Source: Plantibacter elymi (nom. nud.)
Lineage (GTDB): Bacteria; Actinomycetota; Actinomycetes; Actinomycetales; Microbacteriaceae
Direction: 5' to 3'
Assembly (NCBI RefSeq): GCF_900177795.1
Contig: NZ_FXWJ01000003.1
Span: 310,001 to 374,000 of the forward strand
Length of the DNA: 64,000 nt
Position numbers and translations under genes: made by a program. The notes beneath the pieces were generated by a model that did not search any database, was not told the origin of the DNA, and was given only the letters and a program-made list of their open reading frames with translations. Positions 21,598 through 55,140 of this stretch are shown here, one piece after another. Position 1 is the stretch's first letter. Every line of letters starts with the position of its first letter.

Positions 21598-24117
21598 TTA
21601 CTCCGACTGCGGCTGGATGATCGGGATGGACTCGGTGTCGGCCGGGCCGAGCGCGATCGTCGGCATCGACACGGTGATGAGCGAGCCGTCGGCACGGCGG
21701 CTGCCCTCGATGTCGCTCGCGCTCGGCTCGCCGACGAGGTGCGGACCCTGGTTGTCGAGCGGAACGGTGACCGTCGTCCCGGCCTCGACGAGGACGTTGC
21801 CGCCGCCGACGACGAACGAGGCGGAATCGCCCTCCTCGACGGTGAACCGCATCTCGGTGCGCCGGACGGAGATGCGCACCCGCGTTCCCTTGACCGTGAG
21901 CCGGAAGGTGATGCCCTGCCAGTCGACCGGCAGGCGCGGTGAGAAGGAGATGACGCCGCCGTGGTCTCGCATGCCGGCGAAGCCGAGCACGAGCGCACTC
22001 CACACGCCACCGGTGGAGGCGACGTGCACGCCGTCCGGCGTGTTGCGGTGCAGGTTCGCGAGGTCGACGAACAGCGCCGACCAGAAGTACTTGAGCGCGA
22101 GCCGCTGGTACCCGACCTCGGCGGCGATGATCGACTGCACGACCGCCGACAGGGTCGAGTCGCCCGTCGTCAGCGGATCGTAGTAGTCGAAGTCGGCGAG
22201 CTTCTCCTCGTCGGTGAAGTGGTCGCCCTGCAGGAGCAGCGCCAGCACGACGTCCGCCTGCTTGAGCACCTGGAACCGGTAGATGACGAGCGGGTGGAAG
22301 TGCAGGAGCAGCGGGAGGTGCTCGGGAGGCGTGTGATCGAGGTCCCACAGCTCCTTCTCGAGGAACTGGGCGTCCTGCGGGTGGATGCCGAGCCGCTTGT
22401 CGAAGGGGATGTGCATGTGCTCGGCGGCGCGCTGCCACTCGCGGACCTCGGCGTCGTCGAGCGACAGCCGCGTGACCAGGCGTTCGAAGGAGGCCGGATC
22501 GTCCTCGCGAAGGCGCTCCACGGCCTCGACGGCCGACAGCAGGTTCGACCGCGCCATGACGTTCGTGTAGAGGTTGTCGTTCACCACGGTCGTGTACTCG
22601 TCGGGCCCCGTGACCCCGTAGATGTGGAAGGAGTCCTTGCCGTTCGCGCGCCAGAAGCCCAGGTCGGCCCACATGCGCGCCGTCTCGACGAAGATGTCGA
22701 CGGCTCCGCGAGCGAGGAAGTCCTCATCCCCCGTCGCCGCGACGTACTGCCGCAGCGCATAGGAGATGTCGGCGTCGATGTGGTACTGCGCCGTGCCGGC
22801 CGCGTAGTACGCGGACGACTCGAGCCCGTTGATCGTGCGCCACGGGAACAGGGCGCCGTGCTGGTTGAGCTCGGTCGCGCGGGAGCGGGCGGCGTCGAGC
22901 ATGTTCTGACGGAACCGGAGGGCGTTCCGCGCAACGAGCGGTGCCGTGTAGCTGAGGAACGGGAGGACGTAGACCTCGGTGTCCCAGAAGTAGTGGCCGC
23001 CGTACCCGGAGCCGGACACGCCCTTCGCCGCGACACCGCCGCCGTCCGTGCGTGCGGACGCCTGCGCCAGCTGGAAGAGGTTCCAACGCGTCGCCTGCTG
23101 GATGGCCGGCTGTCCGTGGACCTCGACGTCGGAGCGCGCCCAGAAGTCCTCGAGCCACAGCTCCTGGTTGCGGATCGCCGATTCGATGCCGTTCTCAGCG
23201 GAACGGTCGAGCGTGCGGGCACAACGGTCGGCGAGTTCCTTCGGGGGGACGGCGTTGGAGGTGTGGTAGCTGATGATCTTGGTGAGCTTCGTGGGCACGC
23301 CCGCGCGGCCGCGGATCGTGTACACGTGCTTCGCGAGGTCGGCCTCGATGTGCGTCGAGACCTCGTACTCGTTCTCGGTCTCGATCGTGTGGTCGGCGCC
23401 GGCCACGATCGTCATGCCGGAGTTCGTCGTCTGGTAGCCGAGCATCGCGCGCGGACCATCGATGAGCTTGTACCGCGGCTGCAGCACCCGCTCGGTGAGG
23501 GACTCCGCCTTGCGCGGATCACCCATCCCCGGCTCGGGTGCGTTCGTCAGGTAGTCGTCCTGACGGTCCTGACGGTTGATGATCTGGCTGGAGAGCACGA
23601 GCGACGCGTCCGCGTCGAGCAACGTGACCTCGTAGTCGAGGACCGCGAGATGGCGGTCGGTGAAGGACACCATGCGACGGGAGCGGATGTGGACGCGCTT
23701 CCCGGAGGGCGTCCGCCATTCGAGTTCACGGCTGAGGACACCGGTCTTGAAGTCGAGGCGACGCTCGAAGCTCAGGAGGTCGGCGTCGTTGAGGATCAAC
23801 GGCTCGTCGTCGACGTAGAGGCGGACGACCTTCGTGTCGGGCGCGTTGACGATCGTCTGGCCGACGCGGGCGAAGCCGAACGCCTCCTCGGCGTGACGGA
23901 TCGGCCAGGTCTCGTGGAACCCGTTGATGAACGTGCCGTGGACGTGGCCGTCGCGGCCCTCCTCGACGTTGCCGCGGAAGCCGAGGTAGCCGTTGCCGAG
24001 CGCGAACAGGGTCTCAGTCGTGCCCTCGTCGTCCGCGTCGACATGCGTCTCGACGAGTGCCCAGTCGTCGAGCGGGAACCGATGACGGTCGAGCGGGTCG
24101 CTGGTGATGTGGTTCAT
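21598..24117 (-). CDS. Glycoside hydrolase family 65 disaccharide phosphorylase
   Basis: This 839-residue protein of GH65 cleaves alpha-glucosidic disaccharides (maltose, trehalose or kojibiose) with phosphate to give beta-glucose 1-phosphate. It has the N-terminal beta-sandwich (LFALGNGYLGFRGNVEEG), the (alpha/alpha)6 barrel with SGSGYGGHYFWDTEVYVLPF, the general-acid glutamate Glu507 in GVTGPDEYTT, and a C-terminal beta-sheet domain. Length is slightly above the usual 750-790. It overlaps the downstream-acting mutase gene by four bases, which fits conversion of the product to glucose 6-phosphate. The exact disaccharide cannot be determined by eye. Confidence 0.9.
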   Translation of the reverse strand: MNHITSDPLDRHRFPLDDWALVETHVDADDEGTTETLFALGNGYLGFRGNVEEGRDGHVHGTFINGFHETWPIRHAEEAFGFARVGQTIVNAPDTKVVRLYVDDEPLILNDADLLSFERRLDFKTGVLSRELEWRTPSGKRVHIRSRRMVSFTDRHLAVLDYEVTLLDADASLVLSSQIINRQDRQDDYLTNAPEPGMGDPRKAESLTERVLQPRYKLIDGPRAMLGYQTTNSGMTIVAGADHTIETENEYEVSTHIEADLAKHVYTIRGRAGVPTKLTKIISYHTSNAVPPKELADRCARTLDRSAENGIESAIRNQELWLEDFWARSDVEVHGQPAIQQATRWNLFQLAQASARTDGGGVAAKGVSGSGYGGHYFWDTEVYVLPFLSYTAPLVARNALRFRQNMLDAARSRATELNQHGALFPWRTINGLESSAYYAAGTAQYHIDADISYALRQYVAATGDEDFLARGAVDIFVETARMWADLGFWRANGKDSFHIYGVTGPDEYTTVVNDNLYTNVMARSNLLSAVEAVERLREDDPASFERLVTRLSLDDAEVREWQRAAEHMHIPFDKRLGIHPQDAQFLEKELWDLDHTPPEHLPLLLHFHPLVIYRFQVLKQADVVLALLLQGDHFTDEEKLADFDYYDPLTTGDSTLSAVVQSIIAAEVGYQRLALKYFWSALFVDLANLHRNTPDGVHVASTGGVWSALVLGFAGMRDHGGVISFSPRLPVDWQGITFRLTVKGTRVRISVRRTEMRFTVEEGDSASFVVGGGNVLVEAGTTVTVPLDNQGPHLVGEPSASDIEGSRRADGSLITVSMPTIALGPADTESIPIIQPQSE

Positions 24118-36508: not shown

Positions 36509-38071
36509 ATGGCAGCTCCAGCTCCGACCGTCGGCCCGACTCGATGGGAACGACGGCGGTGGGTCACCTTCGTCATCGCGTTCCTCGCGGTCCTCGCCCC
36601 CATGTCCCTCTGGGCGCTGGCGTCACCCATCGGCTCGGTGCCGGACGAGCCATCCCACGCGATCCGAGCCGCCGCGGTCGCGCGCGGAGAGTTCGCGTCC
36701 ATCCCGTGGCCTGAGAACCCGGGTCTGGCCGAGGCCACCGTGCCGGAGAACATCGCCAACGCGCACGCACTCGCGTGCTTCGCCTTCAAGAGCGAGACGA
36801 CGACGGCAGACTGCCAATACCCGATACGGGACCGCAGCGAGAAGCTCGTGACCACCGGATCGTCCGCCGGCGCCAACAGTCCGCTCTTCTACGCCATCGT
36901 CGGCTGGCCCTCCCTGCTCGTCGACGGTGACGCGGTCTTCTACGCCATGCGCCTGGCCGGCGCCGTGGTCTCAGCGCTCGCACTGGCCGCGATGTTCATG
37001 CAGTTGACCCTCCTCCCGCGTTGGCGCTGGGCGGTCACCGGGGCGGTCGTCGGCATCACGCCGATGGTCCTCTACCTCGGCGGATCCATCAACCCGAACG
37101 GTGTCGAGGTGGCAGCCGCCGGCGGGCTCTTCGCGACCCTCGTCGCGATGACGAGGGGGACGGCCCGCGGTCGGCTCCTCTGGGAACAGGCGATCCTCGC
37201 GCTGGTCACGGCGATCCTCCTCATGAGCACGCGCAGCATCTCGCTCCTGTGGATCGCGATCATCCTCGGCGTGGCGATCTTCCTCGGAACCCGGGGTCGG
37301 ACGTTCCAGCTCCTCCGGTCACCGCAGGGCATCACCCTCCTGATCGCCACCGCCGCAATCGGCCTGGCGACCGTCGCCTGGTACCTGAACCCACCCGCGC
37401 TCGAGGGCGAGCCGGCCTCGAGCGTGGGCCTCGTCAGTTACGCCTTCGCAGCAGGTTCGATCCTGCTCCGGTCCTTCGACTGGGTGCTCGGGATGATCGG
37501 CCTGTTCGGATGGGTCGACACTCCCGCCCCCTCCGCCACGGTGTTCGCCTGGAGCACGGCACTCGTCGCGATGCTCGGCGTCTCCGTCGTCTGGGGTCGT
37601 CGCCGGACGACCATGGCCTCGTGGGCACTGGTCGTCGTCTGTCTGCTCGTGCCTGCCGCCGTCACGATCTCGGTGTACGCGCAGTACGGGTACATCTGGC
37701 AGGGCCGCTACATGCTGGCGATGCTGATCTGCTTGCTGATCTGCGCCGGGCTCGCACTCGACGACGCATCGCGGGAGGCCGATCGCCTGACGACTCGGCT
37801 GATCACCGGTGGGTTCGCCGCACTCGCCATCGGTCACCTCTTCGCGTTCGTCTTCGCGATGCAGCGCTTCGCCGTCGGATCGGCTATCGACTTCGGGGAG
37901 TTCTTCTTCGCCCCGAAGTGGCAGCCTCCCCTCGGGTGGCAGACGCTTGCGATGCTCTTCGCGCTCGTCCTCGTCGTCGACGTCCTCCTCGCGCGCCGGC
38001 TGTTCCGCGCCGCGCCGACCGCCGAACCGGCAGCGGTCCTCGAGGACGCGAGCACGGAGGCCCCGGCTTAG
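36509..38071 (+). CDS. DUF2142 membrane protein (GT-C-like), copy A
   Basis: This 520-residue protein has about twelve hydrophobic segments. It shows the DUF2142 pattern: an early extracytoplasmic loop with PIGSVPDEPSHAIRAAAVARG, a GGSINPNGVEVAAAGG segment and YGYIWQGRYMLAML late in the protein. The acidic residue pair in the first loop recalls GT-C transferases using polyprenyl-phosphate sugars. It probably adds a sugar outside the membrane. It is a paralog of 42398-43978 on the opposite strand. Its stop overlaps the convergent LpxA-like gene by four bases. Confidence 0.83.
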   Translation: MAAPAPTVGPTRWERRRWVTFVIAFLAVLAPMSLWALASPIGSVPDEPSHAIRAAAVARGEFASIPWPENPGLAEATVPENIANAHALACFAFKSETTTADCQYPIRDRSEKLVTTGSSAGANSPLFYAIVGWPSLLVDGDAVFYAMRLAGAVVSALALAAMFMQLTLLPRWRWAVTGAVVGITPMVLYLGGSINPNGVEVAAAGGLFATLVAMTRGTARGRLLWEQAILALVTAILLMSTRSISLLWIAIILGVAIFLGTRGRTFQLLRSPQGITLLIATAAIGLATVAWYLNPPALEGEPASSVGLVSYAFAAGSILLRSFDWVLGMIGLFGWVDTPAPSATVFAWSTALVAMLGVSVVWGRRRTTMASWALVVVCLLVPAAVTISVYAQYGYIWQGRYMLAMLICLLICAGLALDDASREADRLTTRLITGGFAALAIGHLFAFVFAMQRFAVGSAIDFGEFFFAPKWQPPLGWQTLAMLFALVLVVDVLLARRLFRAAPTAEPAAVLEDASTEAPA

Positions 38072-38730
38072 ATCGGATCGCGCCCCTCGACGACCGACGA
38101 GCCGAGCGCGTCCGCGAACCGTTCGCGCAGGCTCTCGATCTGCTCGACGGACAGTCCGGCAGCCTCGGCCCCGCGTCGATTGACGTCGCGGACGCGAGCA
38201 GGACTTCCGTACGCCTTCGCGTACGCCGGGACATCGCGCGTGACGACCGCCCCCATGCCCACCATCGCGCCGGCGCCGATCGTCCGGCGCTGATGGACGA
38301 GTGCCCCCAGCCCGATGTTGGCACCGTCGCCGACGACGACGTGGCCGGCCAGCCGGACGCCACCCGCGACCGTCACCGCTCGAGCGAGCTGCACGTCGTG
38401 CGCGACGTAGGCCTGGTTCATGATGAAGGCGTCGTCGCCGACGGTCGTCGCACGCTGCCATCCCTGATGGATCTGAGCCTGCTCCCGCACGACGGTGCGG
38501 TCACCGATGACCACTCCGGCTGGACGTGCTGCACCGGTGCGCGACTCATCGCGACCGGCATGCGGGAAGTCGCGTACCTCGGGAGGTGCACCGATGATCG
38601 CCCCACTCCCGATGAAGTTCCCGTCGCCGATCACGACCGGTCCCGTGATCACGACGAACGCACCGATCACGTTGCCATCGCCCATCCTGATGTCGCCGTC
38701 GAGCACTGCGGTGGGGTGGATCGTGTTCAT
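38068..38730 (-). CDS. LpxA-like hexapeptide acyltransferase (sugar 3-N- or 3-O-acyl)
   Basis: This 220-residue left-handed beta-helix protein is more like LpxA than like the usual sugar N-acetyltransferases. Equivalents of E. coli LpxA residues are visible: His111 (for catalytic His125, in NQAYVAHDVQL), His130 (for His144, RLAGHVVVG), His146 (for His160, ALVHQRRTIG), and an RRG pair near the C-terminus. Tyr108 replaces His122, and the substrate loop near residues 49-60 is altered. The C-terminal helical part is shorter than in the 262-residue LpxA. With the divergent aminotransferase and dehydrogenase it would acylate a 3-amino sugar nucleotide. The start sits 6 nt after a TACACT box. Confidence 0.8.
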   Translation of the reverse strand: MNTIHPTAVLDGDIRMGDGNVIGAFVVITGPVVIGDGNFIGSGAIIGAPPEVRDFPHAGRDESRTGAARPAGVVIGDRTVVREQAQIHQGWQRATTVGDDAFIMNQAYVAHDVQLARAVTVAGGVRLAGHVVVGDGANIGLGALVHQRRTIGAGAMVGMGAVVTRDVPAYAKAYGSPARVRDVNRRGAEAAGLSVEQIESLRERFADALGSSVVEGRDPI

Positions 38731-38736
38731 GCGGCA

Positions 38737-38742
38737 AGTGTA
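38737..38742 (-). promoter_or_regulatory. -10 box of probable leaderless promoter, LpxA-like gene
   Basis: TACACT on the minus strand ends 6 nt before the ATG at 38730. Confidence 0.5.
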
Positions 38743-38822
38743 CGTCTGACCGGTCCGCTCGATCGGACGAGGTATCGTAGGGGTTGGGGGGCCGTCTCCC
38801 GCGCACGCAAGAACGAGGCAGC

Positions 38823-39926
38823 ATGATTCCAATCACCACCGTCCGGTTCGGAGCTGAAGAGGAACGACGGGTGGTCGAGGTCATCCGGTCGGGCAGCATC
38901 GCTCAAGGACCCGTCGTGGCCGAACTCGAGGACCGCTTCGCCCGGATGCACGACGCCCGGCACGCGATCGCGGTGAACAACGGCACCACCGCCCTCATCG
39001 CAGCGCTCCAGGTCCTCGACCTCCGTCCTGGCGACGAGGTCATCACCTCGCCGTTCACGTTCGTGGCGACCATCAACGCCATCCTCCAGACCGGGGCGAC
39101 CGTGCGATTCGCCGACATCCACGACACCGACTTCGGGCTCGATGCGACGTCCGTCGCCGGGCTCATCTCCGACCGCACCCGCGTGATCATGCCGGTCCAC
39201 CTGTACGGCCAGATGGTCGACATGGCGCCGTTGGCCGAGCTCGCCACGGCGAACGACCTCGTGATCGTGGAGGACTCGGCACAGTCGCATGGCGCGCGGT
39301 ACCGCGGACGCGCCGCCGGGAGCTTCGGACTCGGCACGTTCTCGTTCTACGCGACGAAGAACATCACGACCGCTGAGGGTGGCATGATCACGACGGACGA
39401 CGACGCGCTCGCGGACCGTCTGCGCGTCCTCCGCAACCAGGGCATGCGCGCCCGCTACGAGTACGTCACCGTGGGCAACAACTTCCGGCTCACCGACCTC
39501 CATGCCGCGTTGGCGATCCCGCAACTCGACCGCTACGACGAGACCGTGCGGCTTCGCCGAGCGAACGCGGCGGCCCTCACCGCAGGTCTCGCCGACGTTC
39601 CCGGCATCAGGACCCCGGCGACCTTCGCCGACCGCGACCATGTCTGGCATCAGTACACCGTCCGCGTGACCGACGAATCAGCGACGACGCGCGACGACTT
39701 CCCGGCCGCGCTCGCCGAGCGTGGCGTCGGGAGCGGCATCTACTACCCGAAACTCATCCTCGACTACGACGCGTATCGAGGACGCCCTGATGTCGCCGAG
39801 GACTCGACCCCGACGGCGGCCACGGTCGCTGCGCAGGCGCTGTCCTTGCCCGTGCACACCGAGCTCTCGCCCGAGGATCTCGACACGATCATCGACGCCG
39901 TGCGTGACGTGGCGGCGGGTCGCTGA
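38823..39926 (+). CDS. DegT/DnrJ/EryC1-family sugar aminotransferase (GnnB/WlbC-like)
   Basis: This 367-residue PLP enzyme has the full aminotransferase set: NNGTTALIAAL for phosphate binding, the pyridine-ring aspartate in EDSAQSHGA (Asp151), and the Schiff-base Lys179 in FYATKNITTAEGG. Together with the coupled Gfo/Idh/MocA dehydrogenase it fits the GnnA/GnnB or WlbA/WlbC logic, in which C3 is oxidised to a ketone and then aminated to give a UDP-3-amino sugar. The start ATG 38823 follows AACGAGGCAGC. Its stop shares one base with the next start (TGATG), so the two are coupled. Confidence 0.88.
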   Translation: MIPITTVRFGAEEERRVVEVIRSGSIAQGPVVAELEDRFARMHDARHAIAVNNGTTALIAALQVLDLRPGDEVITSPFTFVATINAILQTGATVRFADIHDTDFGLDATSVAGLISDRTRVIMPVHLYGQMVDMAPLAELATANDLVIVEDSAQSHGARYRGRAAGSFGLGTFSFYATKNITTAEGGMITTDDDALADRLRVLRNQGMRARYEYVTVGNNFRLTDLHAALAIPQLDRYDETVRLRRANAAALTAGLADVPGIRTPATFADRDHVWHQYTVRVTDESATTRDDFPAALAERGVGSGIYYPKLILDYDAYRGRPDVAEDSTPTAATVAAQALSLPVHTELSPEDLDTIIDAVRDVAAGR

Positions 39927-40894
39927 TGGGCGCGCGGAAACGATTCGTCGTCGTCGGTGCGGGAATGATGGGCACCAATCACGCGAGGGTGGTCGCTCAA
40001 TCGGAGTCTGCCGAGCTCGCGGTCCTCGTCGACCCACGCAGCGACGTCGGTACACGACTCGCCGAGCAGCATGGCGCGAGCTGGGCGCCGGAACTCCCCT
40101 CGCTCGACGGGATCGACGGCGTCATCGTCGCAGCAGCGACCGAGGCCCATCATGAACTCGCGATGCAGGTGCTCGCGGCAGGGGTCCCGCTCCTGATCGA
40201 GAAGCCCATCGCGGCCGGGATCGAGCACTCCCGAGAAGTGGTCGCGACGGCGGAGGCGAACGACATCCCACTCATGTGCGGACTCCTCGAGCGCTTCAAT
40301 CCGGCGGTGCTCACCGCCCGCTCCTTCATCGAGACTCCGATCCACATCTCGGCCATCCGGCACTCTCCCTACGCCCCCCGGATCCGCACCGGGGTCGCCT
40401 GGGACCTGCTCGTGCACGATGTCGACCTCGCGATCGTGTTCGCCGGCGGGGTACCGGAGACGGTGTCCTCGACGCTCGGGCACTTCCATCCGTCTTCCCT
40501 CGCCGACGCGGAGGACGTCGCGGAGACCATCCTCGGCTTCGACACGGGTGCGATCGCCCACATCTCCGCCAGCCGGATGGGACAGAAGAAGATCCGGCAG
40601 GTGTCGGTTTCTGAGCGCGAGCGACTGATCGAGATCGATCTCCTCCGCCGCGACGTGACGGTGTACCGTCATGTCTCCGAGGACCTCGTGGCGGGCGCTC
40701 ATCGCGGCTACCGGCAGCAGACGGTCATCGAGATCCCCGAGATGGTCACGAGTGTCGAACCGCTCACGGCACAGTTCGCGCACTTCTGCGGCATCATCGA
40801 CGGCTCGATCGATGCCGGCAAGGAGCGACGAAGCCTCCTCCCCGCCCACGAGGTGATCGCGAAGGTCCTCGACTCCGCTCCGGCGATGGCGTGA
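39926..40894 (+). CDS. Gfo/Idh/MocA-family sugar-nucleotide dehydrogenase (GnnA/WlbA-like)
   Basis: This 322-residue NAD(P)-dependent oxidoreductase has the Rossmann motif VVVGAGMMGTNHARVV, the lysine of LLIEKPIAAG, and the LLVHDVDLAIVFAGG segment with the family His/Asp. It would oxidise the 3-hydroxyl of a UDP-N-acetylhexosamine (or its uronate), supplying the keto sugar for the aminotransferase encoded just before it. It is translationally coupled on both sides, TGATG upstream and GTGA downstream, so four genes form one operon. Confidence 0.87.
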   Translation: MGARKRFVVVGAGMMGTNHARVVAQSESAELAVLVDPRSDVGTRLAEQHGASWAPELPSLDGIDGVIVAAATEAHHELAMQVLAAGVPLLIEKPIAAGIEHSREVVATAEANDIPLMCGLLERFNPAVLTARSFIETPIHISAIRHSPYAPRIRTGVAWDLLVHDVDLAIVFAGGVPETVSSTLGHFHPSSLADAEDVAETILGFDTGAIAHISASRMGQKKIRQVSVSERERLIEIDLLRRDVTVYRHVSEDLVAGAHRGYRQQTVIEIPEMVTSVEPLTAQFAHFCGIIDGSIDAGKERRSLLPAHEVIAKVLDSAPAMA

Positions 40895-41346
40895 CCTCGC
40901 CGACACCCGGGCGCCGCGGACGCGTCCGCGGGCTGCTCTGGAACAGCGGTGTGCGCTATCTGCTGGTAGGTGGATCGGCGTTCCTCGTGGACCTCGGCAT
41001 GTTGGCCCTGTTCTACAACGTGTTCGGCTGGACCCTGTGGATCGCGACCACGGTCGCCTTCCTGTTGAGCTTCGTCTACACCTACTCGATGCAGCGTGTC
41101 TTCGCGTTCGGGTCGAGCGCACCGCAGGGTGCAGCCCTCATCAAGTACGCTGCTCTCGTCGCGTTCAACACGATCGCCACAGCGTCCATCGTGTCACTCA
41201 TCGACACCACGTTCGCCGGCTGGATCGGCGGCAAGATCGTCGCCACCGTCGCCACGACGGTGTGGAACTACTTCATCTACCGGTACTGGGTGTTCGCCCA
41301 CCGGACTGAGACACCGACCGGGCCCGCCGGTCTCCAGGAGGAATAG
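40891..41346 (+). CDS. GtrA-family membrane protein
   Basis: This 151-residue protein has four hydrophobic segments and GtrA features: GVRYLLVGGSAFLVDLGMLALFY at the N-terminus and ATTVWNYFIYRYWVFAH at the C-terminus. GtrA proteins are thought to flip polyprenyl-phosphate-linked single sugars to the outer face. It starts at GTG 40891 within the stop of the dehydrogenase gene and is followed 3 nt later by a GT2 gene, the classical GtrA/GtrB pairing. Confidence 0.88.
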   Translation: MTSPTPGRRGRVRGLLWNSGVRYLLVGGSAFLVDLGMLALFYNVFGWTLWIATTVAFLLSFVYTYSMQRVFAFGSSAPQGAALIKYAALVAFNTIATASIVSLIDTTFAGWIGGKIVATVATTVWNYFIYRYWVFAHRTETPTGPAGLQEE

Positions 41347-41349
41347 ACC

Positions 41350-42312
41350 GTGTTCAACGGAGCCATCATCGCGGCAGTCGTGCCGGCGTATCGCGAGGAG
41401 AAGATGATCTCGACGGTCATCGACACCATGCCGGAATTCGTCGACCACATCGTCATCGTCGACGACTGCAGCCCGGACGACACCAGCGGTGTGGTGGCTG
41501 CATCGACCGACGATCGCGTCGTGCTCATCCGGCACGAGGAGAACCAAGGCGTCGGCGGAGCGATCATCACGGGTCACCGACGCGCGATGGAGCTCGGCGC
41601 GGACGTGAACGTCATCATGGCCGGCGACGCGCAGATGGATCCGGCCTATCTCCCCGAGCTGCTCAACAAGGTCACCACTGACGGGTACGGTTTCGCTAAG
41701 GCGAACCGGTTCTTCTCCCCCGAGTCGTTCCATGGCATGCCGGGCTACCGCGTCTTCGGCAACATCGTGTTGTCGTTCATGACGAAACTCGCATCGGGGT
41801 ACTGGCACCTCTTCGACCCGCAGAACGGGTACACGGCCGTGCGAACCTCGGAGTTGCGCCGCGTTCCGCTCGACAACGTGTCGCGACGATACAGCTTCGA
41901 GAACGACTTCCTGATCCATCTGAACATCCTGCAGGTGCCTGCGATCGATGTCCCCATCCCCGCCGTCTACGGCGAAGAGGTGTCGAGCATCAAGCTGAGT
42001 CGCGTCATCCCCGAGCTCCTCAGCCTCCTGACGCAGGGCTTCTGGCGGCGCATCTGGTACCGCTACGTCCTGTGGTCGTTCTCGCCGATCGCGCTGCTGC
42101 TCACCCTCGGGCTGGTGCTGTTCGTCTTCGGTCTCGCGGTGGCGATCTGGGTCTGCTTCCAGGTCGCAGCTTCGGTCGTGGCGACGGCAGCCACGGTGAT
42201 GCTCGCGGCACTCCCCCTGATGCTCGGAACGCAGATGCTCATCAGCGCCTTGCAACTCGACATCCAGGCGAGCCCGCAGACTCCCACGCACGCGCCTTTC
42301 CCCGACAACTGA
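41350..42312 (+). CDS. GtrB-like polyprenyl-phosphate glycosyltransferase (GT2) with C-terminal helices
   Basis: This 320-residue enzyme has a GT-A head (AAVVPAYREEKMISTVID, IVDDCSPDDTSGVV, NQGVGGAIITGHRRAM, metal-binding MAGDAQMDP) and two C-terminal membrane helices (about residues 240-300). It would move the sugar made by the preceding enzymes from its nucleotide to undecaprenyl phosphate, for flipping by the coupled GtrA. The segment SGYWHLFDPQNGYTAVR is typical of this GT2 subgroup. Start GTG 41350 has AGGAGG 8 nt upstream. It converges on the second DUF2142 gene. Confidence 0.87.
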   Translation: MFNGAIIAAVVPAYREEKMISTVIDTMPEFVDHIVIVDDCSPDDTSGVVAASTDDRVVLIRHEENQGVGGAIITGHRRAMELGADVNVIMAGDAQMDPAYLPELLNKVTTDGYGFAKANRFFSPESFHGMPGYRVFGNIVLSFMTKLASGYWHLFDPQNGYTAVRTSELRRVPLDNVSRRYSFENDFLIHLNILQVPAIDVPIPAVYGEEVSSIKLSRVIPELLSLLTQGFWRRIWYRYVLWSFSPIALLLTLGLVLFVFGLAVAIWVCFQVAASVVATAATVMLAALPLMLGTQMLISALQLDIQASPQTPTHAPFPDN

Positions 42313-42397: not shown

Positions 42398-43978
42398 TCA
42401 GGGGGTCTGCGAGGCAGGCTCATGCGAGGCGGTCACCGGCGTTTCGAGACCTGTCGCCGGCCGTTCAGCTCGCGCCGAGGCGCCAAGCCAGACGAGACTC
42501 GCTGATGCGGCCGCTGCCAGCACGAGCCACGGCCAGAACCCCAGCGGCGGAAGCCAGAGCGCGCCCCGGAGCATGTCGATCCAATCGACCGTCGCACCGG
42601 TCGCGTACCGCCGGATCGACGTCGCCACGGCACCGACGTGGGCGAGCACGACGAGTGTGCCGACGATCCAGTACACACGATGCTGAACGCGCTCGGCGAT
42701 GCGGATCTCGCCGCGATCCGGGCTGACCGACAGCGCGATGACGGCGTAGACGAACAGTGCCGAGAACGCGACGAGCGTGTAGCGGCCCTGCCAGATGTAT
42801 CCCGAGTTCACGACGGATGCCGCTTGGATCGCGGGGGGTCCGAGGAACACGATCGCGAGCATGAGCAGGAAGCCGACGAGGAGGCGACCACGAAGCAGCA
42901 CCGCCGCGGCGACCGCGAGGACGACGGCGAGCGCACTCCAGAGGACGTAGACGAACGCCGGGTTCCAGGTGTCCAGCCATCCGAAGACCCCGACGATCCC
43001 GGCATCGAACGAACGGTCGAGCAGCATCGTCACGAACGCGCGGACCGGTCCCACCGTACCCGCTCCTGCGAAGGTGCCGAGCTGTCCGAGCGTGTTCGTA
43101 GCCAGCACCCACGCCGCGGCACCTCCGGTCGCGAGCGCTACGACGCCGATCGCGATCCAGGTCGAGGCTCGCGTGAAGACGGCGCGAAGCCGCTGCGGGG
43201 GCGTCACGACCAGGACCACGAGGATGAAGAGGAGCAGCCAGAGGGGCGAGATGCTGCGGGCGTTGACGGTCAGTGCGCCGGCGACGGCGACACCGGCCAT
43301 CGACCACCCGAACCCTCGGTCGGGACTGGACCCGATCGTCACCCGGAGCAACAAGGCGAGCACGGCCATCGACCCGGCGATCTCGAGCGAGTTCGGATTG
43401 ACGGAGCCGTTCAGGAAGAAGAGCATCGGCGTCGCGGCGGTGAGGAAGCCGACGGTCGTGAGCCATGGACGCCTCAACGACAGGAGGGCCGTGAAGGCGA
43501 TGGCCAACAGCGCCGATGACAATGCGGCGCTCACGAGGCGCATGCCGAAGACGACCTGTTTCGACTCCGCGAGCACGAGGCTCGGCCAACCGACGAGAGC
43601 GTAGTAGGTGGGGTTGTAGAGCCCGGCCGAGGTCGTCGCCTCGGTGAGGCCGAGACCGCTACCAGCCGTCACGGAACATGATGCGGGAGCCGTCGCCTGG
43701 AAGGCGTAACATCCTGGCCACGACTGCGCTCCGGCCACACTTCGGGGAACCTGGACCGAGGTCCATGACGGCTTCTCGGTCGGTTCACCGATCGGCTGGC
43801 CGTGCACGACGGCAGCTGCCTTGATGATGTGCGACGGTTCGTCCGGGCTGCCTCCCAGCGGTGTGGAGATGGCCCAGACGGTGGACAGCAGGAACAGTCC
43901 CGCGAAACTCGTGAGGAGGACCCGCCACGTCCGGGCCTGCATCCAGGAATGAAGACGAGACACACGTACCCCCTGCAT
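42398..43978 (-). CDS. DUF2142 membrane protein (GT-C-like), copy B
   Basis: This 526-residue protein with about twelve hydrophobic segments is a paralog of the gene at 36509. Shared landmarks are PLGGSPDEPSHIIKAAAVVHG in the first outer loop, NGSVNPNSLEIAGSMAVLAL and NSGYIWQGRYTLVAF. It probably transfers a polyprenyl-phosphate-bound sugar outside the membrane. ATG 43978 or a GTG 18 nt later (with GGGGGTAC upstream) could be the start. Together with copy A it brackets the amino-sugar operon in inverted orientation. Confidence 0.83.
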   Translation of the reverse strand: MQGVRVSRLHSWMQARTWRVLLTSFAGLFLLSTVWAISTPLGGSPDEPSHIIKAAAVVHGQPIGEPTEKPSWTSVQVPRSVAGAQSWPGCYAFQATAPASCSVTAGSGLGLTEATTSAGLYNPTYYALVGWPSLVLAESKQVVFGMRLVSAALSSALLAIAFTALLSLRRPWLTTVGFLTAATPMLFFLNGSVNPNSLEIAGSMAVLALLLRVTIGSSPDRGFGWSMAGVAVAGALTVNARSISPLWLLLFILVVLVVTPPQRLRAVFTRASTWIAIGVVALATGGAAAWVLATNTLGQLGTFAGAGTVGPVRAFVTMLLDRSFDAGIVGVFGWLDTWNPAFVYVLWSALAVVLAVAAAVLLRGRLLVGFLLMLAIVFLGPPAIQAASVVNSGYIWQGRYTLVAFSALFVYAVIALSVSPDRGEIRIAERVQHRVYWIVGTLVVLAHVGAVATSIRRYATGATVDWIDMLRGALWLPPLGFWPWLVLAAAASASLVWLGASARAERPATGLETPVTASHEPASQTP

Positions 43979-44059: not shown

Positions 44060-46294
44060 CTACTTCACCGATCCACCGGTCGCGGGCGACCACTGGATGG
44101 TGCCGCCCTGGAAGGTCTGGGTGCAGGTTCCATCGCCCGTGCACGTCTGGTTCGCCGTGGGCCATCCGAGCGGCCCGGTGACGCCACCCTTGGTGTTGTA
44201 GAACGCGCGGATCTCTCCGGTGAGCACGGCGGCACCCGTCGTCGCCGTCCAGGCGATCGCGCCGTTCACGAAGGCGTTCACCCATCCAGAGGTCGACCCG
44301 CTGATGGCGACCGAGCTCCCCGTCGGCGCGCCGAGTGCACCGCTTTGGCCACCGGCCTGCGTGTACGCGGCCGCGATCTGCGGCTGCAGCACCGCGCCCG
44401 TGCCGTCCGACTGCACGACGACGACGCCGCCCTGGAAGGACTGCGTGCAGACACCCGAGACGCAGCTGGCCGCGCCTGTGGGCCAGCCGAGCGAACCGCC
44501 GATGCCACCACGAGCGTTGAAGAACGTCCGGACGACGCCCTGGATGGGGAATCCGCCGGTCGAGGCGTTCCAGGCGATCGCGCCGCCTTCGAACGCCTGC
44601 ACGATGCCTCCGTTGAGCGGGATCGGACCCGTCTGCGGCCAACCGAGCGAGCCCGTCGTGCCGCCTGCGGCCGTGTAGGGCGTCATGATCGAGGTCGGGA
44701 TCGAGAACCCACCCTTGGCCGCCGAGAAGATGACCGAGCCACCGGCGAAGGCCTGGGTGCAGGTGCCGTCTCCGCCGCAGCTCTGTGCGCCGGTCGGCCA
44801 GCCCAGTGGGCCTGCGATGCCCCCGGACGCGTTGAAGGCGTTACGCACGTCTCCCTGGAGGAGCTGCGCGGCACCGTTGGTCGCGATCGTGATCGCTCCC
44901 TTTTCGAACGCCTGCACGGTGCCACCGCCGTTGTCGGCGATGGCGATCGCCGAGGTCACGGGCAGCCCGAGCGTGCCGCCCATGCCACCTGCGGCCTTGT
45001 ACGCGGTGAGCATGGCTCCGGAGACGCTTCGTGAGCCATAGCTCGCGGAGTTGTACACGAGCCCGCCTTGGAACTCCTGGCGACAGGTGCCGGAAGCGCA
45101 GATCTCCTCGCTCACGGGCCACCCGAAGGAGCCACCGATGCCGCCCAACTGGTTGAAGTGGGTCCGGATCGAACCGAGGATGGTGAAGCCTCCCGCAGCC
45201 GAGTACGCGACGGCACCGCCAGCGAACGCCTGCACCTTCCCGCCACCGTTCGCAGTGACCGTGTTCATGTCGCTCGCGGGCCAGCCGAGCGCGCCGGACA
45301 CGCCGCCCCGGGTGTTGTAGTAGTTCCGGATGTCACCGGACAGGGCGTAGGCGCCCAGCGGGGCGGACCAGGCGATCGCGCCTCCCGCGAATCCGCGGAC
45401 GATGCCGCCGCCGTTCGCCGTGATGGCGTTGTACCCGGTGACAGCGGCTCCGAGATACCCGTTGACCCCGCCCGCGTTCTGGTAGGCGTTGTCGATGGCC
45501 ATGGCACCGCGGCTGGTCGTGGGGCCGAACCAGTCGGTGAAGATCCGCCAGAAGTTGCGGTTGCCGTACGCGCCGCAGCCGTCACCGGTGCCGTACAGGT
45601 TGGCGAGCGCTGAAGCGTTCGGCTGGTAGGGCGTGTAGTTGTAGAGGCCGGCGGTGGCCTGGTTCTGGATGTACACGGCGCTCGAACCGCAGTTGGCGTT
45701 CGGGTTGAACCTGATCGAGTTCACACGTCCGGCGATGTGGTTCCACCGGGTGGGGTTGGCTGCATAGTTCTTGAACTGCAATGCGGCCGCATAGACCTGG
45801 TTGAAGAAGCCGTAGTACTCCGTGTCGCAGTCCGCCGTGTCGGGGCACCCGTAGCCCATCGCGCTGCGGTACTGGCGCGCGGACGGCCAGTCGTCCGTGA
45901 TCAGGCTCTGCTCCTTCTCGAGGAGTACGATGAGCGCCTTCTGGCTGATGCCGCACGCAGCGCCCACTCTGGCGATGATGTCGGCCGCACTCTCGTTCCC
46001 GCCGGTGTACGCACCGCACCGCCCGGAGACGGCGCCGCGGTTGGGGGTGATCTGGCGGTAGTCCTTCAGACACGTGTACCCGGAGCGACAGCTCGACACG
46101 CGCGAGTTCAGGAACGCCTGGACCTGGGGTGCGGACATCTGCCCACCGTCGAAGAACAGATCGTCGCTGATGATGTTCCCCGGGTTGAAGTCCCGTGCGT
46201 CGGCTGCAGCCGCTTGTTCGGGGGCGGCCCCGAGCGTGAGTCCGCTGACGAGCAGTGCGATCACTGCGGCCACGGCGATGAAGCTGCGTTTCAT
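44060..46294 (-). CDS. Secreted LGFP-repeat cell-wall protein
   Basis: This 744-residue exported protein has a signal peptide (MKRSFIAVAAVIALLVSGLT..., cleavage near AAA-AD at ~35). A cysteine-containing N-terminal domain follows, to about residue 270 (ALIVLLEKEQSLI resembles a lysozyme-like helix, unproven). Then come nine LGFP repeats of ~53 residues, each with the core GG-x-x-G-x-LG-x-P and a later F-x-GG pair (for example GGVSGALGWPAS and GGIGGSLGWPTG). LGFP repeats are associated with cell-wall binding in actinobacteria. The start overlaps the lipoprotein stop by four bases. Confidence 0.9.
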   Translation of the reverse strand: MKRSFIAVAAVIALLVSGLTLGAAPEQAAAADARDFNPGNIISDDLFFDGGQMSAPQVQAFLNSRVSSCRSGYTCLKDYRQITPNRGAVSGRCGAYTGGNESAADIIARVGAACGISQKALIVLLEKEQSLITDDWPSARQYRSAMGYGCPDTADCDTEYYGFFNQVYAAALQFKNYAANPTRWNHIAGRVNSIRFNPNANCGSSAVYIQNQATAGLYNYTPYQPNASALANLYGTGDGCGAYGNRNFWRIFTDWFGPTTSRGAMAIDNAYQNAGGVNGYLGAAVTGYNAITANGGGIVRGFAGGAIAWSAPLGAYALSGDIRNYYNTRGGVSGALGWPASDMNTVTANGGGKVQAFAGGAVAYSAAGGFTILGSIRTHFNQLGGIGGSFGWPVSEEICASGTCRQEFQGGLVYNSASYGSRSVSGAMLTAYKAAGGMGGTLGLPVTSAIAIADNGGGTVQAFEKGAITIATNGAAQLLQGDVRNAFNASGGIAGPLGWPTGAQSCGGDGTCTQAFAGGSVIFSAAKGGFSIPTSIMTPYTAAGGTTGSLGWPQTGPIPLNGGIVQAFEGGAIAWNASTGGFPIQGVVRTFFNARGGIGGSLGWPTGAASCVSGVCTQSFQGGVVVVQSDGTGAVLQPQIAAAYTQAGGQSGALGAPTGSSVAISGSTSGWVNAFVNGAIAWTATTGAAVLTGEIRAFYNTKGGVTGPLGWPTANQTCTGDGTCTQTFQGGTIQWSPATGGSVK

Positions 46295-46755
46295 GGGATC
46301 TCCAACGTGGTGGGTTCCGAACTGAGCGAGGGCTGTGCGGTCGAGCTGTACTCGAGGGTCACGGTCCAGGTGCCGGGCGTGAAGAGCCCGGCGTCGAGCT
46401 GCGTCACCCCGCACGAGGTCTGGGCCCGGTCTGCGAGGCCTTCGACATCCGTGCGCTGCTCCGAGGTGCCGTTCGCAACCACCCAGGTGCACACGCCGCC
46501 GTTCTCGACCACGCCCGAGATGTAACCGGACACCGAGACGTGCGCCTGATCGCCGTCGAGTTCGGCGAACACGATGACCGCGTCCGGCCGAGCGGTCGGC
46601 TCGGGAGGCATCGGTGCGTCCGTCCCCTTGTCGACGTCGGGCGGCGTGCTGATGGCGGTCGAGACGGGGTTCGAGAACCACGAGCAGCCCGCGAGCCCCG
46701 TCATCAGGACGACCGCGGTGAGTACCGCCATCGTTCGATTCCGATGGTTCCGCAT
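46291..46755 (-). CDS. Small lipoprotein coupled to LGFP-repeat protein
   Basis: This 154-residue protein has a lipoprotein signal peptide: basic MRNHRNR, hydrophobic core, and the lipobox LAGC with the modified cysteine at about residue 24. The mature part is a single beta-rich domain with two cysteines (VCTWVVANG and TSCGVTQLD) likely to form a disulfide. I do not recognise its family. Start ATG 46755 has AGAGGA upstream. The four-base overlap with the LGFP gene suggests that the two act together at the cell surface. Confidence 0.8.
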   Translation of the reverse strand: MRNHRNRTMAVLTAVVLMTGLAGCSWFSNPVSTAISTPPDVDKGTDAPMPPEPTARPDAVIVFAELDGDQAHVSVSGYISGVVENGGVCTWVVANGTSEQRTDVEGLADRAQTSCGVTQLDAGLFTPGTWTVTLEYSSTAQPSLSSEPTTLEIP

Positions 46756-46859
46756 GTCGTCGTTCCTCTCGTGCCCCGGACGGGTGCCACAAGAGTATCG
46801 GGATCGCGCGGTCTCACGCGACGTGGAGACGGACATCTGACGCGCAGAGGCCTGACGTC

Positions 46860-48298: not shown

Positions 48299-49135
48299 AT
48301 GCAGTACTTCAAGGAGCTGGCGTCCGCCAGAGAACTCCTCGCGAATCTCACGCTTCGCGACATCCGAGGGCAATACAAGCGCACCGTCCTCGGGCGCGTC
48401 TGGTCCCTGGCGAGCCCGCTGTCAGCGATGCTCGTCTACACCTTCGTCTTCTCGTTCATCTTCAACATCAAGCCCGCTGCGGGTGACCCGAGCGGGGTGA
48501 ACGTCTTCGCGATCTGGCTGCTCTGCGGCCTGCTTCCATGGACCTTCTTCTCCGCCGCGATCTCCGCCGGCATGGGTTCACTGGTCGGCAACTCCGGCCT
48601 GATCACGAAGGTGTACTTCCCGAGGGTCGTCCTCCCGATCTCCTCCGTGCTCACGGTCGGGTACAACTGGCTCTTCGAGATGGCGGTCCTGACGATCGCC
48701 TTGCTGATCGTCGGCGCGTTCGTCCTGCCGTGGCTCCCCCTCGTCGTCCTGATGATGCTGATCCTGGTCGTCTTCGCGACCGGCGTCGGTCTCGCACTCT
48801 CCGTCGCGAACGTCTATTTCCGCGACACCCAGTACCTGCTGAGCATCGTCCTGCAGATCTGGATGTACCTGACCCCGATCGTGTACCCCGAGAGCCTGGT
48901 CCGCGACCAGTCGGACAAGGTCGGCGGACTCTTCGGCACGAACATCGAAGTCATGGACATCTACTCGTTGAACCCGATGCTCCACTTCGTGCACGTGTTC
49001 CGGAACATCATGTACGACAACCGCTGGCCGGATTCGGCCGATGTGTGGGCGTGCGTCGCGTGGGCCGTCGCCGCGATCGCGGTGGGTCTGTTCGTGTTCG
49101 CGCGCAAGGAGAAGAGACTGGCGGAGATCCTATGA
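48299..49135 (+). CDS. wzm: Polysaccharide ABC transporter permease (Wzm/TagG type)
   Basis: This 278-residue membrane protein of the ABC-2 type has six hydrophobic segments. Landmarks are NLTLRDIRGQYKRTVLGRVWSLASPL near the N-terminus, NSGLITKVYFPRVVLPIS, and IWMYLTPIVYPESLV followed by NPMLHFVHVFRNIMYD, the typical ABC2 export signature. It would form the channel that exports a complete lipid-linked polysaccharide. Translation starts at ATG 48299 behind AAAGAGG and is coupled by ATGA to the ATPase gene. Confidence 0.93.
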   Translation: MQYFKELASARELLANLTLRDIRGQYKRTVLGRVWSLASPLSAMLVYTFVFSFIFNIKPAAGDPSGVNVFAIWLLCGLLPWTFFSAAISAGMGSLVGNSGLITKVYFPRVVLPISSVLTVGYNWLFEMAVLTIALLIVGAFVLPWLPLVVLMMLILVVFATGVGLALSVANVYFRDTQYLLSIVLQIWMYLTPIVYPESLVRDQSDKVGGLFGTNIEVMDIYSLNPMLHFVHVFRNIMYDNRWPDSADVWACVAWAVAAIAVGLFVFARKEKRLAEIL

Positions 49136-49866
49136 GCGACATCGCGGTGAGCGTCGAATCGATCAGCAAGAAGTTCCGGCTGTATCACGAGCGCAATCAG
49201 AGCATCAAGTCAGCGATCATGCGGCGTCGCGTCTCCGTCCACGAAGACTTCTGGGCACTGAACGACATCAGCTTCGAGGTCCCCCGCGGGTCCACCTTCG
49301 GACTCATCGGGAGCAACGGTTCCGGCAAGTCGACGCTCCTGAAGTGTCTCGCGAAGATCCTGTACCCCGAGCACGGGACGATCACCGCGAACGGCAAGGT
49401 CGCCGCACTGCTCGAGGTCGGTTCGGGGTTCCACCCGGAGCTGTCCGGACGCGAGAACATCTACCTGAACGGGTCGATCCTCGGCATGAGCCGCAAGGAG
49501 ATCGACAGCAAGTTCGACGCCATCGTGGAGTTCTCCGGTGTCGAGCAGTTCATCGATCAGCCCGTGAAGAACTACTCGTCGGGCATGTACGTCCGCTTGG
49601 GGTTCTCCGTCGCGATCAACGTCAACCCGGACATCCTCGTCGTAGACGAGGTCCTGGCCGTCGGTGACGCCGAGTTCCAGGCGAAGTGCTTCCAGAAGTT
49701 CCAGGACTTCAAGGCGGCTGGGAAGACGGTGATCCTCGTCAGCCACTCGATGGCCACCGTCAAGTCGATGTGTGACCACGCTGCTTGGATCAACAAGGGC
49801 AACCTGCAGGCCGTCGGGCCCGCAGCATCGACGATCGCGGCTTACGAGTCGTCCTACCCGTCGTGA
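49132..49866 (+). CDS. wzt: Polysaccharide ABC transporter ATPase (Wzt/TagH type)
   Basis: This 244-residue ATPase has Walker A GSNGSGKST (residues 60-68), the ABC signature YSSGMYVRLGFS, Walker B ILVVDEVLAVGD, and the H-loop LVSHSM. The domain order and the NQSIKSAIMRRR N-terminal region match Wzt/TagH/RfbB exporters. It ends shortly after the H-loop, so it lacks the C-terminal carbohydrate-binding domain of many Wzt proteins; substrate recognition is then probably by the lipid or reducing end. It is coupled to its neighbours by ATGA and GTGA overlaps. Confidence 0.93.
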   Translation: MSDIAVSVESISKKFRLYHERNQSIKSAIMRRRVSVHEDFWALNDISFEVPRGSTFGLIGSNGSGKSTLLKCLAKILYPEHGTITANGKVAALLEVGSGFHPELSGRENIYLNGSILGMSRKEIDSKFDAIVEFSGVEQFIDQPVKNYSSGMYVRLGFSVAINVNPDILVVDEVLAVGDAEFQAKCFQKFQDFKAAGKTVILVSHSMATVKSMCDHAAWINKGNLQAVGPAASTIAAYESSYPS

Positions 49867-53851: not shown

Positions 53852-54457
53852 TCAGTTCCCCTTCAAGGTCGCGTAGAACGCCCGGGCGTCGTCCCAGGTC
53901 GGCAGGAGGCCGGCGGCGGCCGCCTCGTCGAGGCCGGGGGCCTCGGTGTCCTTCGGTGAGAGCAGCGGGGTGCCTGCCTCCGGCGGGATGACGAGACCGA
54001 CCCGCTCGTCGAGCGGGTTGATGCCGTGCTCGCGGTCGGGGCGGTAGACGTCGGTCACGAGGTAGCTGACGGTGGCGTCGTCGGTGAGCGCCACGAAGCA
54101 GTGGCCGAGGCCCTCGGAGATGAAGATGGCCTTGCGGTCGGTGTCGTCGAGCAACACCGAATCCCACTGGCCGAACGTCGGCGAGCCCACACGGATGTCG
54201 ATGACGTAGTCGAGGACGGCACCGCGGGTGGCCGTGACGTACTTCGCCTGGCCGATCGGGATGTCCGCGAAGTGGATGCCACGCACCGAGCCACGCTTCG
54301 AGACCGAGGTGTTGGACTGGGCCAGCTTGATGGACCGACCGGTGGCCTCTTCGAGCTTGTCGAAGCGGTACCACTCGAGGAAGACCCCTCGGTCGTCACC
54401 GAACTGCTTCGGGGTGATCTCATAGCTGTCAGGGATGTTCAGTTCGCGGATCTGCAC
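53852..54457 (-). CDS. rmlC: dTDP-4-dehydrorhamnose 3,5-epimerase
   Basis: This 201-residue cupin-fold enzyme inverts C3 and C5 of dTDP-4-keto-6-deoxyglucose. It has [30 protein letters not shown] with Arg59 and catalytic His62, [20 protein letters not shown] and [16 protein letters not shown]. The start is GTG 54457, 6 nt after a TAGACT box, so translation may be leaderless. It is first in the rmlC-rmlA-rhamnosyltransferase-epimerase operon. Confidence 0.96.
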
Positions 54458-54546: not shown

Positions 54547-55140
54547 ATGATCCCTCTGCTCCGCCGCCTCTGGAACGGCGTCGCCGCCTACGCGGTGAAG
54601 TTCGGTGTCGTCGGACTCATCGGCTTCGGCCTCGACGTGCTCGTGTTCAACCTGCTCCGCGTCGGCGTCTTCGGGCACGACCACCTCGCGCAGTCCCCCA
54701 TCGGCGCCAAGGTCATCAGCGTGTCCGTCGCGATCGTCTTCAACTGGATCGGCAACCGGTACTGGACCTTCCGCGAGCACCGCCGGAAGAACTTCCTCCT
54801 CGAGCTCGGCGAGTACGTCATCGTCTCCCTGGGTGGGATGGCCATCGCGGTCGGATGCCTCTTCGTCAGCCACTACGTCCTCGGCTTCACCTCCCTCCTC
54901 GCCGACAACGTCGCGTCGAACGTCATCGGGCTCGGCCTCGGGACCCTCTTCCGCTTCTTCCTCTACCGGTTCTGGGTCTACGGACATCATCGGGCCGACG
55001 GCCTGGCCAACCTCGCCCGGGCCGAGGAGGCACAGCGGACCCTGTTCGAGGAGCCGCCGACCGACGCCGCCCGGTCAGCGGCCTCCCCGACCGAGCCGGG
55101 TACGATGAACGGGCCACTCCCGAGAGGACCCCTATCTTGA
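54547..55140 (+). CDS. GtrA-family membrane protein
   Basis: This 197-residue protein has four hydrophobic segments with VVGLIGFGLDVLVFNLLRVG and VFNWIGNRYWTFREHRRKN, both typical of GtrA. A C-terminal acidic tail of ~45 residues extends it beyond the usual 130-150. It may flip a polyprenyl-phosphate sugar; no GtrB-like gene is adjacent here. Its stop overlaps the TTG start of rmlD by four bases. Confidence 0.87.
   Translation: MIPLLRRLWNGVAAYAVKFGVVGLIGFGLDVLVFNLLRVGVFGHDHLAQSPIGAKVISVSVAIVFNWIGNRYWTFREHRRKNFLLELGEYVIVSLGGMAIAVGCLFVSHYVLGFTSLLADNVASNVIGLGLGTLFRFFLYRFWVYGHHRADGLANLARAEEAQRTLFEEPPTDAARSAASPTEPGTMNGPLPRGPLS

Follow-up and report, generated by a model that had tools for sequence, protein, structure and literature searches.

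What does a relative of LpxA do in a Gram-positive bacterium, encoded beside an aminotransferase and a dehydrogenase? The question is raised by a locus of Plantibacter elymi (Microbacteriaceae; source genome of 4.12 Mb in 8 contigs) within the 64,000 nucleotides analyzed here (contig NZ_FXWJ01000003.1, positions 310,001 to 374,000), which we call the window and to which all coordinates refer. The core of the locus is a trio of genes. It encodes an LpxA-like left-handed beta-helix acyltransferase of 220 amino acids (aa; 38068..38730, minus strand; Pfam Hexapep) and, divergently from it, a DegT/DnrJ/EryC1/StrS aminotransferase of 367 aa (38823..39926, plus strand; PF01041, 2.1e-114) and a Gfo/Idh/MocA dehydrogenase of 322 aa (39926..40894, plus strand; Pfam GFO_IDH_MocA). 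Judging from sequence and predicted structure, we propose with a probability of roughly 0.6 that this trio makes a uridine diphosphate (UDP)-2,3-diacetamido-2,3-dideoxyhexose.

For this pathway we infer the substrate, the order of the steps, the acetyl donor and the destination of the sugar as follows. The dehydrogenase, as a GnnA-like UDP-sugar 3-dehydrogenase, would oxidize a UDP-2-acetamido sugar, most likely UDP-N-acetylglucosamine (UDP-GlcNAc), at its C3 hydroxyl to give a 3-ketone, which the pyridoxal phosphate-dependent DegT enzyme would then aminate as 3-aminotransferase. The LpxA-like enzyme would acetylate the new 3-amino group from acetyl-CoA, with His111 as the base, and would thus be a UDP-3-amino-sugar N-acetyltransferase. 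The product, a neutral sugar and no uronic acid, would be incorporated in a wall or surface polysaccharide. As an optional continuation, a family 2 glycosyltransferase (GT2) may load the sugar on undecaprenyl phosphate, from where a GtrA-type protein may flip it and a DUF2142 protein may transfer it outside.

In a sequence search of the PDB, the nearest solved relatives of the acyltransferase were LpxA (1.1e-30, 110.2 bits) and entry 8E62 (6.4e-27, 97.8 bits), whereas the pilin glycosylation protein 4M98 (47.1 bits) and WlbB (45.6 bits) matched more weakly. The 8E62 protein, 35% identical to the window protein along 165 residues, is titled in its record as a Psychrobacter cryohalolentis ‘N-acetyltransferase required to produce Diacetamido-2,3-dideoxy...’; by this title, an LpxA-like 3-N-acetyltransferase of 2,3-diacetamido sugars is already known. 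Structure prediction, which the first-pass annotation had suggested as a check, gave a model with a predicted local distance difference test score of 86.4 whose fold matches include both LpxA and 8E62. The model ends in two C-terminal helices, with low confidence at the last residues, and the corresponding Pfam match to the LpxA C-terminal domain (Acetyltransf_11) reached 20.5 of the 24.5 bits needed. On the NCBIfam models of LpxA the protein likewise stayed under the cut-offs (149.1 bits vs. 226 for NF003657 and 136.7 vs. 231.05 for TIGR01852). It is also shorter than E. coli LpxA (1LXA, 262 aa), as are its 80 analyzed relatives at their median of 239 aa, and in the alignment its C-terminus stops short of that of E. 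coli LpxA.

The 81 family proteins (the window protein and its 80 relatives) were aligned with E. coli LpxA, in which H125 is the catalytic residue. His111, His130 and His146 of the window protein correspond to LpxA H125, H144 and H160, as the first-pass annotation had stated. An RRG motif that it had also listed as LpxA-equivalent was ruled out, since these letters align to LpxA 199–201 and not to Arg204-Arg205-Gly206, where the window protein has Ala-Ala-Gly; the R204 position itself holds Arg in 78 of the 81 members and Ala in the window protein. The LpxA residues H125, H160 and Q161 were kept in all 81 members, and H144 and N198 in 80 each. At the position of LpxA His122, 75 of the 81 members have Tyr (Tyr108 in the window protein), as does 8E62 but neither E. 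coli nor P. aeruginosa LpxA, and the LpxA G173 position is Met throughout the family (81/81). The letters HQR occur in 70 of the 81 members and in 8E62, but not in the LpxA of E. coli or P. aeruginosa. A [MI][VI]GM[GS] pattern was found in 78 members; its GMG core is common to 8E62 and P. aeruginosa LpxA and hence not diagnostic. The window protein carries the Tyr-x-Ala-His-Asp, His-Gln-Arg and Gly-Met-Gly letters of the 8E62 type.

A phylogenetic tree was calculated from 24 family rows, three LpxA, three QdtC-type proteins and 8E62, with 200 bootstraps and with 11 other hexapeptide rows and LpxD dropped; an earlier tree that contained other hexapeptide proteins had been set aside as too noisy. 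LpxA and the QdtC type each formed one clade, separate from one another (both 100/100), and the window protein grouped with seven actinobacterial rows (97/93). The whole family appeared as a single clade in 7% of the 200 bootstrap trees, and the tree did not resolve where LpxA and 8E62 stand relative to it. On the proposed phylogenetic check against LpxA, WlbB and PglD, this tree, which had no WlbB or PglD rows, sets the QdtC type apart. Together, the search scores and the separate QdtC clade support an LpxA-related rather than a WlbB/QdtC-type acyltransferase, in agreement with the first-pass annotation. By its sub-cut-off scores and the Tyr in place of His122, the enzyme is not LpxA itself. 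That the locus instead pairs a sugar acetyltransferase of the WlbB, QdtC or PglD type with a polyol dehydrogenase is extremely improbable given these scores and the tree, and the dehydrogenase scored lower on the inositol model (93.6 bits) than on the UDP-GlcNAc 3-dehydrogenase model (139.7 bits).

The closeness to LpxA in sequence and fold does invite the idea of a true fatty-acyl enzyme, which would start a lipid-A-like glycolipid by moving a (hydroxy)acyl group from acyl-acyl carrier protein (acyl-ACP) onto the 3-amino group. The five LpxA residues retained in at least 80 of the 81 members fit this idea, as does the Met shared with Pseudomonas LpxA at what we take to be the ‘ruler’ position. 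The scores under the LpxA cut-offs, the 8E62-like Tyr for His122 and the shortened C-terminus argue against it, and the genomic context does so as well. LpxC and LpxB had no match in the source genome, while the controls, E. coli among them, matched. Across this genome the LpxA model gave 134.5 bits for the window protein and nothing else above 32.9 bits, and a Pfam scan of 21 window proteins showed no FabZ or Lpx family, save for the weak C-terminal-domain match of the acyltransferase. We consider a fatty-acyl enzyme very unlikely. The same low expectation applies to the broader scheme in which an LpxA relative of lipid-A-free Actinomycetota puts a fatty acyl chain of short or medium length, instead of an acetyl group, on a UDP-3-amino sugar that is then flipped and attached outside. 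If true, Gram-positives would possess an equivalent of the reaction that opens lipid A synthesis, and the enzyme would perhaps be kin to the stock that gave rise to LpxA; the tree does not show whether LpxA stands beside or within the family.

For the dehydrogenase, the PDB sequence search ranked 7BVJ first, the UDP-GlcNAc 3-dehydrogenase GnnA, which was also its best fold match (Foldseek, 1.4e-25) and the top row of a structure comparison, there with a Z score tied with PmdC and GenD2. Its best NCBIfam model was NF040723 (UDP-GlcNAc 3-dehydrogenase), and in the source genome it was the top of 20 matches to this model (139.5 bits; next 99.7 bits). These results support a GnnA-like enzyme and not a polyol dehydrogenase, as the first-pass annotation had assumed. 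Two observations qualify this assignment: the score of about 139.7 bits lies far below the NF040723 cut-off of 450 bits, and in a midpoint-rooted tree, with one doubtful long row in their group, the window-type dehydrogenases seemed to stand apart, beside GnnA plus the haloarchaeal enzymes. A haloarchaeal Gfo/Idh enzyme is likewise under this cut-off (243.3 of 450 bits); it is encoded next to a DegT protein that is 43% identical to that of the window and that lies between it and an acyltransferase gene.

These data bear on whether the trio might work on another nucleotide sugar, such as a dTDP-, GDP- or UDP-sugar without a 2-acetamido group, and yield a different 3-amino sugar. The separation from GnnA and the low model score would allow this, as would the structural tie with enzymes of other substrates, for example GenD2, and the broad matches of the DegT protein, led by perosamine synthetase. 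GnnA as the top row in three measures and the diacetamido-sugar pathway named in the title of the 8E62 relative point toward a 2-acetamido substrate; UDP-GlcNAc is also the substrate of LpxA. Furthermore, two Leucobacter-type loci (L079:7012-7884 and L115:4978-5928) pair the same acyltransferase family with a different Gfo/Idh enzyme that exceeded 200 bits on NF040723 (204.5 and 233.4 bits, respectively) and so outscored the window enzyme. The dehydrogenase seems, from these sequences, to have been exchanged in loci of this type. Overall, we regard another nucleotide sugar as unlikely and a 3-acylamino sugar, the product already suggested by the first-pass annotation, as the likely product of the locus.

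That the sugar would be neutral is suggested by the scarcity of nucleotide-sugar 6-dehydrogenases, which were found near only 1 of the 40 loci with an orthologous DegT-Gfo/Idh pair (as defined below) and near 2 of the 40 other loci. No match to this enzyme was detected within the window; the one nucleotide-sugar 6-dehydrogenase above cut-off in the source genome is located beyond it. WecB-like 2-epimerases occurred near 8 of the 40 pair loci (L055, L057, L070, L073, L074, L077, L086 and L089, up to about 8 kb from the trio) vs. 1 of the 40 other loci. As a weak lead, they could possibly yield the manno form of the sugar. Four of the eight were family-tested, all scoring under the WecB cut-off, and seven of the eight lie on the strand opposite to the trio.

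The distribution of the trio was assessed from 138 confirmed relatives of the acyltransferase, of which the best 80 were analyzed. All of these 80 have actinobacterial titles and, judging from them, the family is widespread in Actinomycetota. An orthologous pair, defined as adjoining DegT and Gfo/Idh genes with at least 50% and 40% identity, respectively, was present at 40 of the 80 loci, divergent from the acyltransferase at 37 and co-directional at 3. Match starts were separated by 101–229 bases at 28 of the divergent loci and by 1.1–5.2 kb at the other nine; in the window, both promoters presumably lie in the 92-base intergenic region (38731..38822) that separates the acyltransferase start from the DegT start. 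The 40 loci without the pair comprised 16 with DegT and Gfo/Idh genes under the identity limits, 9 with Gfo/Idh alone, 7 with DegT alone and 8 with neither. Within 1.5 kb of the acyltransferase, Gfo/Idh genes were found at 53 and DegT genes at 37 of the 80 loci, compared to 1 and 10, respectively, of 20 control loci around other hexapeptide proteins of Microbacteriaceae (the flanks of two were shortened, and L015 is itself a weak relative). Hence, Gfo/Idh is the enriched partner, whereas DegT by itself is not enriched and is common beside hexapeptide proteins generally; the queries were taken from the window, which biases this comparison somewhat toward the family. Among 150 Microbacteriaceae genomes including the source genome, some of them also represented among the best 80 relatives, close relatives of the acyltransferase (E < 1e-40) occurred in 9 of the 149 other genomes, of the dehydrogenase (1e-40) in 5, and of the GT2 (1e-60) in 5, three at 78–86% and two at 39–40% identity. 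Two genomes of the same genus had no match to any of the three proteins at these levels.

Beyond the trio, the operon continues on the plus strand with a GtrA-type membrane protein of 151 aa (40891..41346; PF04138, 4.4e-16), a proposed flippase subunit, and a GtrB/PpgS/AglJ-like GT2 of 320 aa (41350..42312; PF00535, Glycos_transf_2, 1.4e-17), a proposed polyprenyl-phosphate loader that scored under the NCBIfam cut-offs of AglJ (1.4e-13) and PpgS (5.7e-12). Sequence reading and Pfam confirmed this gene set, its coordinates and the head-to-head, coupled arrangement described in the first-pass annotation: the Gfo/Idh start and the DegT stop have one base in common (TGATG), the Gfo/Idh end overlaps the GtrA start by four bases (GTGA), and three bases separate the GtrA stop from the GT2 start. 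PF09913 matches likewise confirmed DUF2142 membrane proteins, possible outer-face glycosyltransferases, on both sides. One of 520 aa (36509..38071, plus strand; 3.3e-41) overlaps the acyltransferase gene by four bases at its end and is an uncertain member of the cassette; the other, of 526 aa (42398..43978, minus strand; 4.5e-42), is convergent with the GT2 gene. Relatives of the second (42–46% identity) adjoin the GT2 in L047, L050 and L051 and lie about 2.3 kb away in L052.

With GtrA, GT2 and DUF2142 all present at the window locus, loading and outer-face transfer of the diacetamido sugar by these proteins has nearly even odds, and is the weakest step of our proposal. The start-stop coupling of all four operon genes speaks for it, and so does the five-gene order kept at 10 of the 80 loci in several genera, in which the GT2 is the most conserved part (76–86% identity vs. 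52–67% for the other enzymes). Several findings weigh against a packaged system. GtrA and GT2 accompany the pair at 10 of its 40 loci, 8 of which add DUF2142, while the other 30 have the trio without GtrA and GT2 in the fetched stretch. In two genomes (G064 and G106), GT2 orthologues of 77–79% identity and GtrA occur without the trio. Trio-free GT2-GtrA genes were located at L158:7924-9395 and L159:7842-9222; those of G106 (L159) adjoin genes for a nucleotide sugar dehydrogenase and for a WecB that exceeds its cut-off. GtrA, GT2 and DUF2142 may be an independent module charged with loading a different sugar, such as glucose or GlcNAc. The amino sugar would then be used by ordinary cytoplasmic glycosyltransferases and exported by an ABC transporter, with the ABC-2 type transporter pair at 48299-49866 as the candidate. 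This arrangement is plausible, at somewhat less than even odds. In view of the trio-free genes and the low co-occurrence, the case for the ‘complete’ system of the first-pass annotation is weakened, and we treat loading and outer-face transfer as possible and keep them out of the core claim. Small GtrA-type partners are a feature of both GtrA/GtrB-type and PpgS systems. The likeness to these systems is the proposed GT2 polyprenyl-phosphate loader, as in corynebacterial PpgS, which serves outer-face glycosylation (PMC9671496); the window adds DUF2142 as a possible transferase. DUF2142 proteins, also treated in PMC9746298, were proposed as polymerases or transferases at lactococcal wall polysaccharide loci, with validation still wanted (PMC12599335).

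The proposed chemistry has known precedents. The closest is Pcryo_0615 (8E62), which resembles the window enzyme in its LpxA-like beta-helix, the three shared letter motifs and the proposed 3-N-acetylation of a UDP-3-amino sugar. It differs in its Gram-negative host and in the sugar, as the title of its paper (Hofmeister et al. 2023) gives a glucuronic acid, whereas the source genome lacked LpxC and LpxB matches and the window a 6-dehydrogenase match. In the route to lipid A with a 2,3-diamino sugar (GlcN3N), GnnA/GnnB act together with LpxA, and the acyl donor is acyl-ACP. C3 oxidation and amination of UDP-GlcNAc by GnnA/GnnB (PMC5644692), followed by LpxA-type acylation, parallel the proposed steps, the differences being again the missing LpxC/LpxB matches and the sub-cut-off acyltransferase. 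The WbpA/B/E/D/I (WlbA/B) pathway to UDP-ManNAc3NAcA employs a dehydrogenase, an aminotransferase and an N-acetyltransferase in the same reaction order (PMC10622841), but it makes a uronic acid with a WlbB-type enzyme, whereas the window locus has an LpxA-like enzyme and no 6-dehydrogenase nearby.

Two haloarchaeal plasmid operons (L153:3263-7357 and L156:2140-6468) contain the three kinds of enzyme in overlapping genes, in the order acyltransferase, DegT and Gfo/Idh, and add a nucleotide sugar dehydrogenase; the incomplete gene table of a third stretch listed no DegT or acyltransferase. In L153 the acyltransferase is QdtC-type and the best model of the Gfo/Idh enzyme is NF040723, which suggests that a single pathway can employ either of two acetyltransferase types and leads here to a neutral product. 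A further archaeal acetyltransferase to be named with these operons is MMP0350 of Methanococcus (PMC2952790, PMC2913515). Among actinobacteria, the Streptomyces utr genes specify a teichuronic-acid-like wall polymer with GlcNAc3NAcA/ManNAc3NAcA, for which an aminotransferase, an oxidase and an N-acetyltransferase (UtrJ) of a Pseudomonas-like pathway were proposed (PMC13274773). This polymer shares the 2,3-diacetamido sugar of an actinobacterial wall with our proposal and differs in its uronic acid and Pseudomonas-like pathway.

An LpxA-like 3-N-acetyltransferase and actinobacterial diacetamido wall sugars are thus each known, which weakens the earlier view that no system of this kind had been described. 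No description of an LpxA-like amino-sugar system in Gram-positives was recognized among the top-ranked open-licence papers. New would be the wide use of an LpxA-type acetyltransferase as an alternative among actinobacteria, a combination that we did not find in the open-licence literature searched. If our reading is right, a widespread group of Actinomycetota uses an LpxA-like 3-N-acetyltransferase instead of one of the WlbB/QdtC type, and 2,3-diacetamido sugars become predictable in walls where they were perhaps never sought. As such sugars in the Streptomyces wall polymer are part of the receptor for antibacterial umbrella toxins (PMC13274773), the trio would mark a variable trait of the cell surface, one of possible importance to phages and competitors. 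Likewise, a gene annotated as ‘LpxA’ in a Gram-positive bacterium does not necessarily imply lipid A.

Pfam matches in the window around the cassette include glycosyltransferases, an acyltransferase-3 protein, an NAD-dependent epimerase, an ABC-2 transporter with its ATPase, and RmlC, which characterizes the region as one of surface polysaccharide synthesis. The RmlC-type epimerase and a second GtrA-type gene lie at 53852-54457 and 54547-55140, respectively. An LGFP-repeat protein with nine repeat stretches (44060-46792, minus strand) adjoins the second DUF2142 gene, and a glycoside hydrolase family 65 protein is encoded at 21598-24117 on the minus strand.

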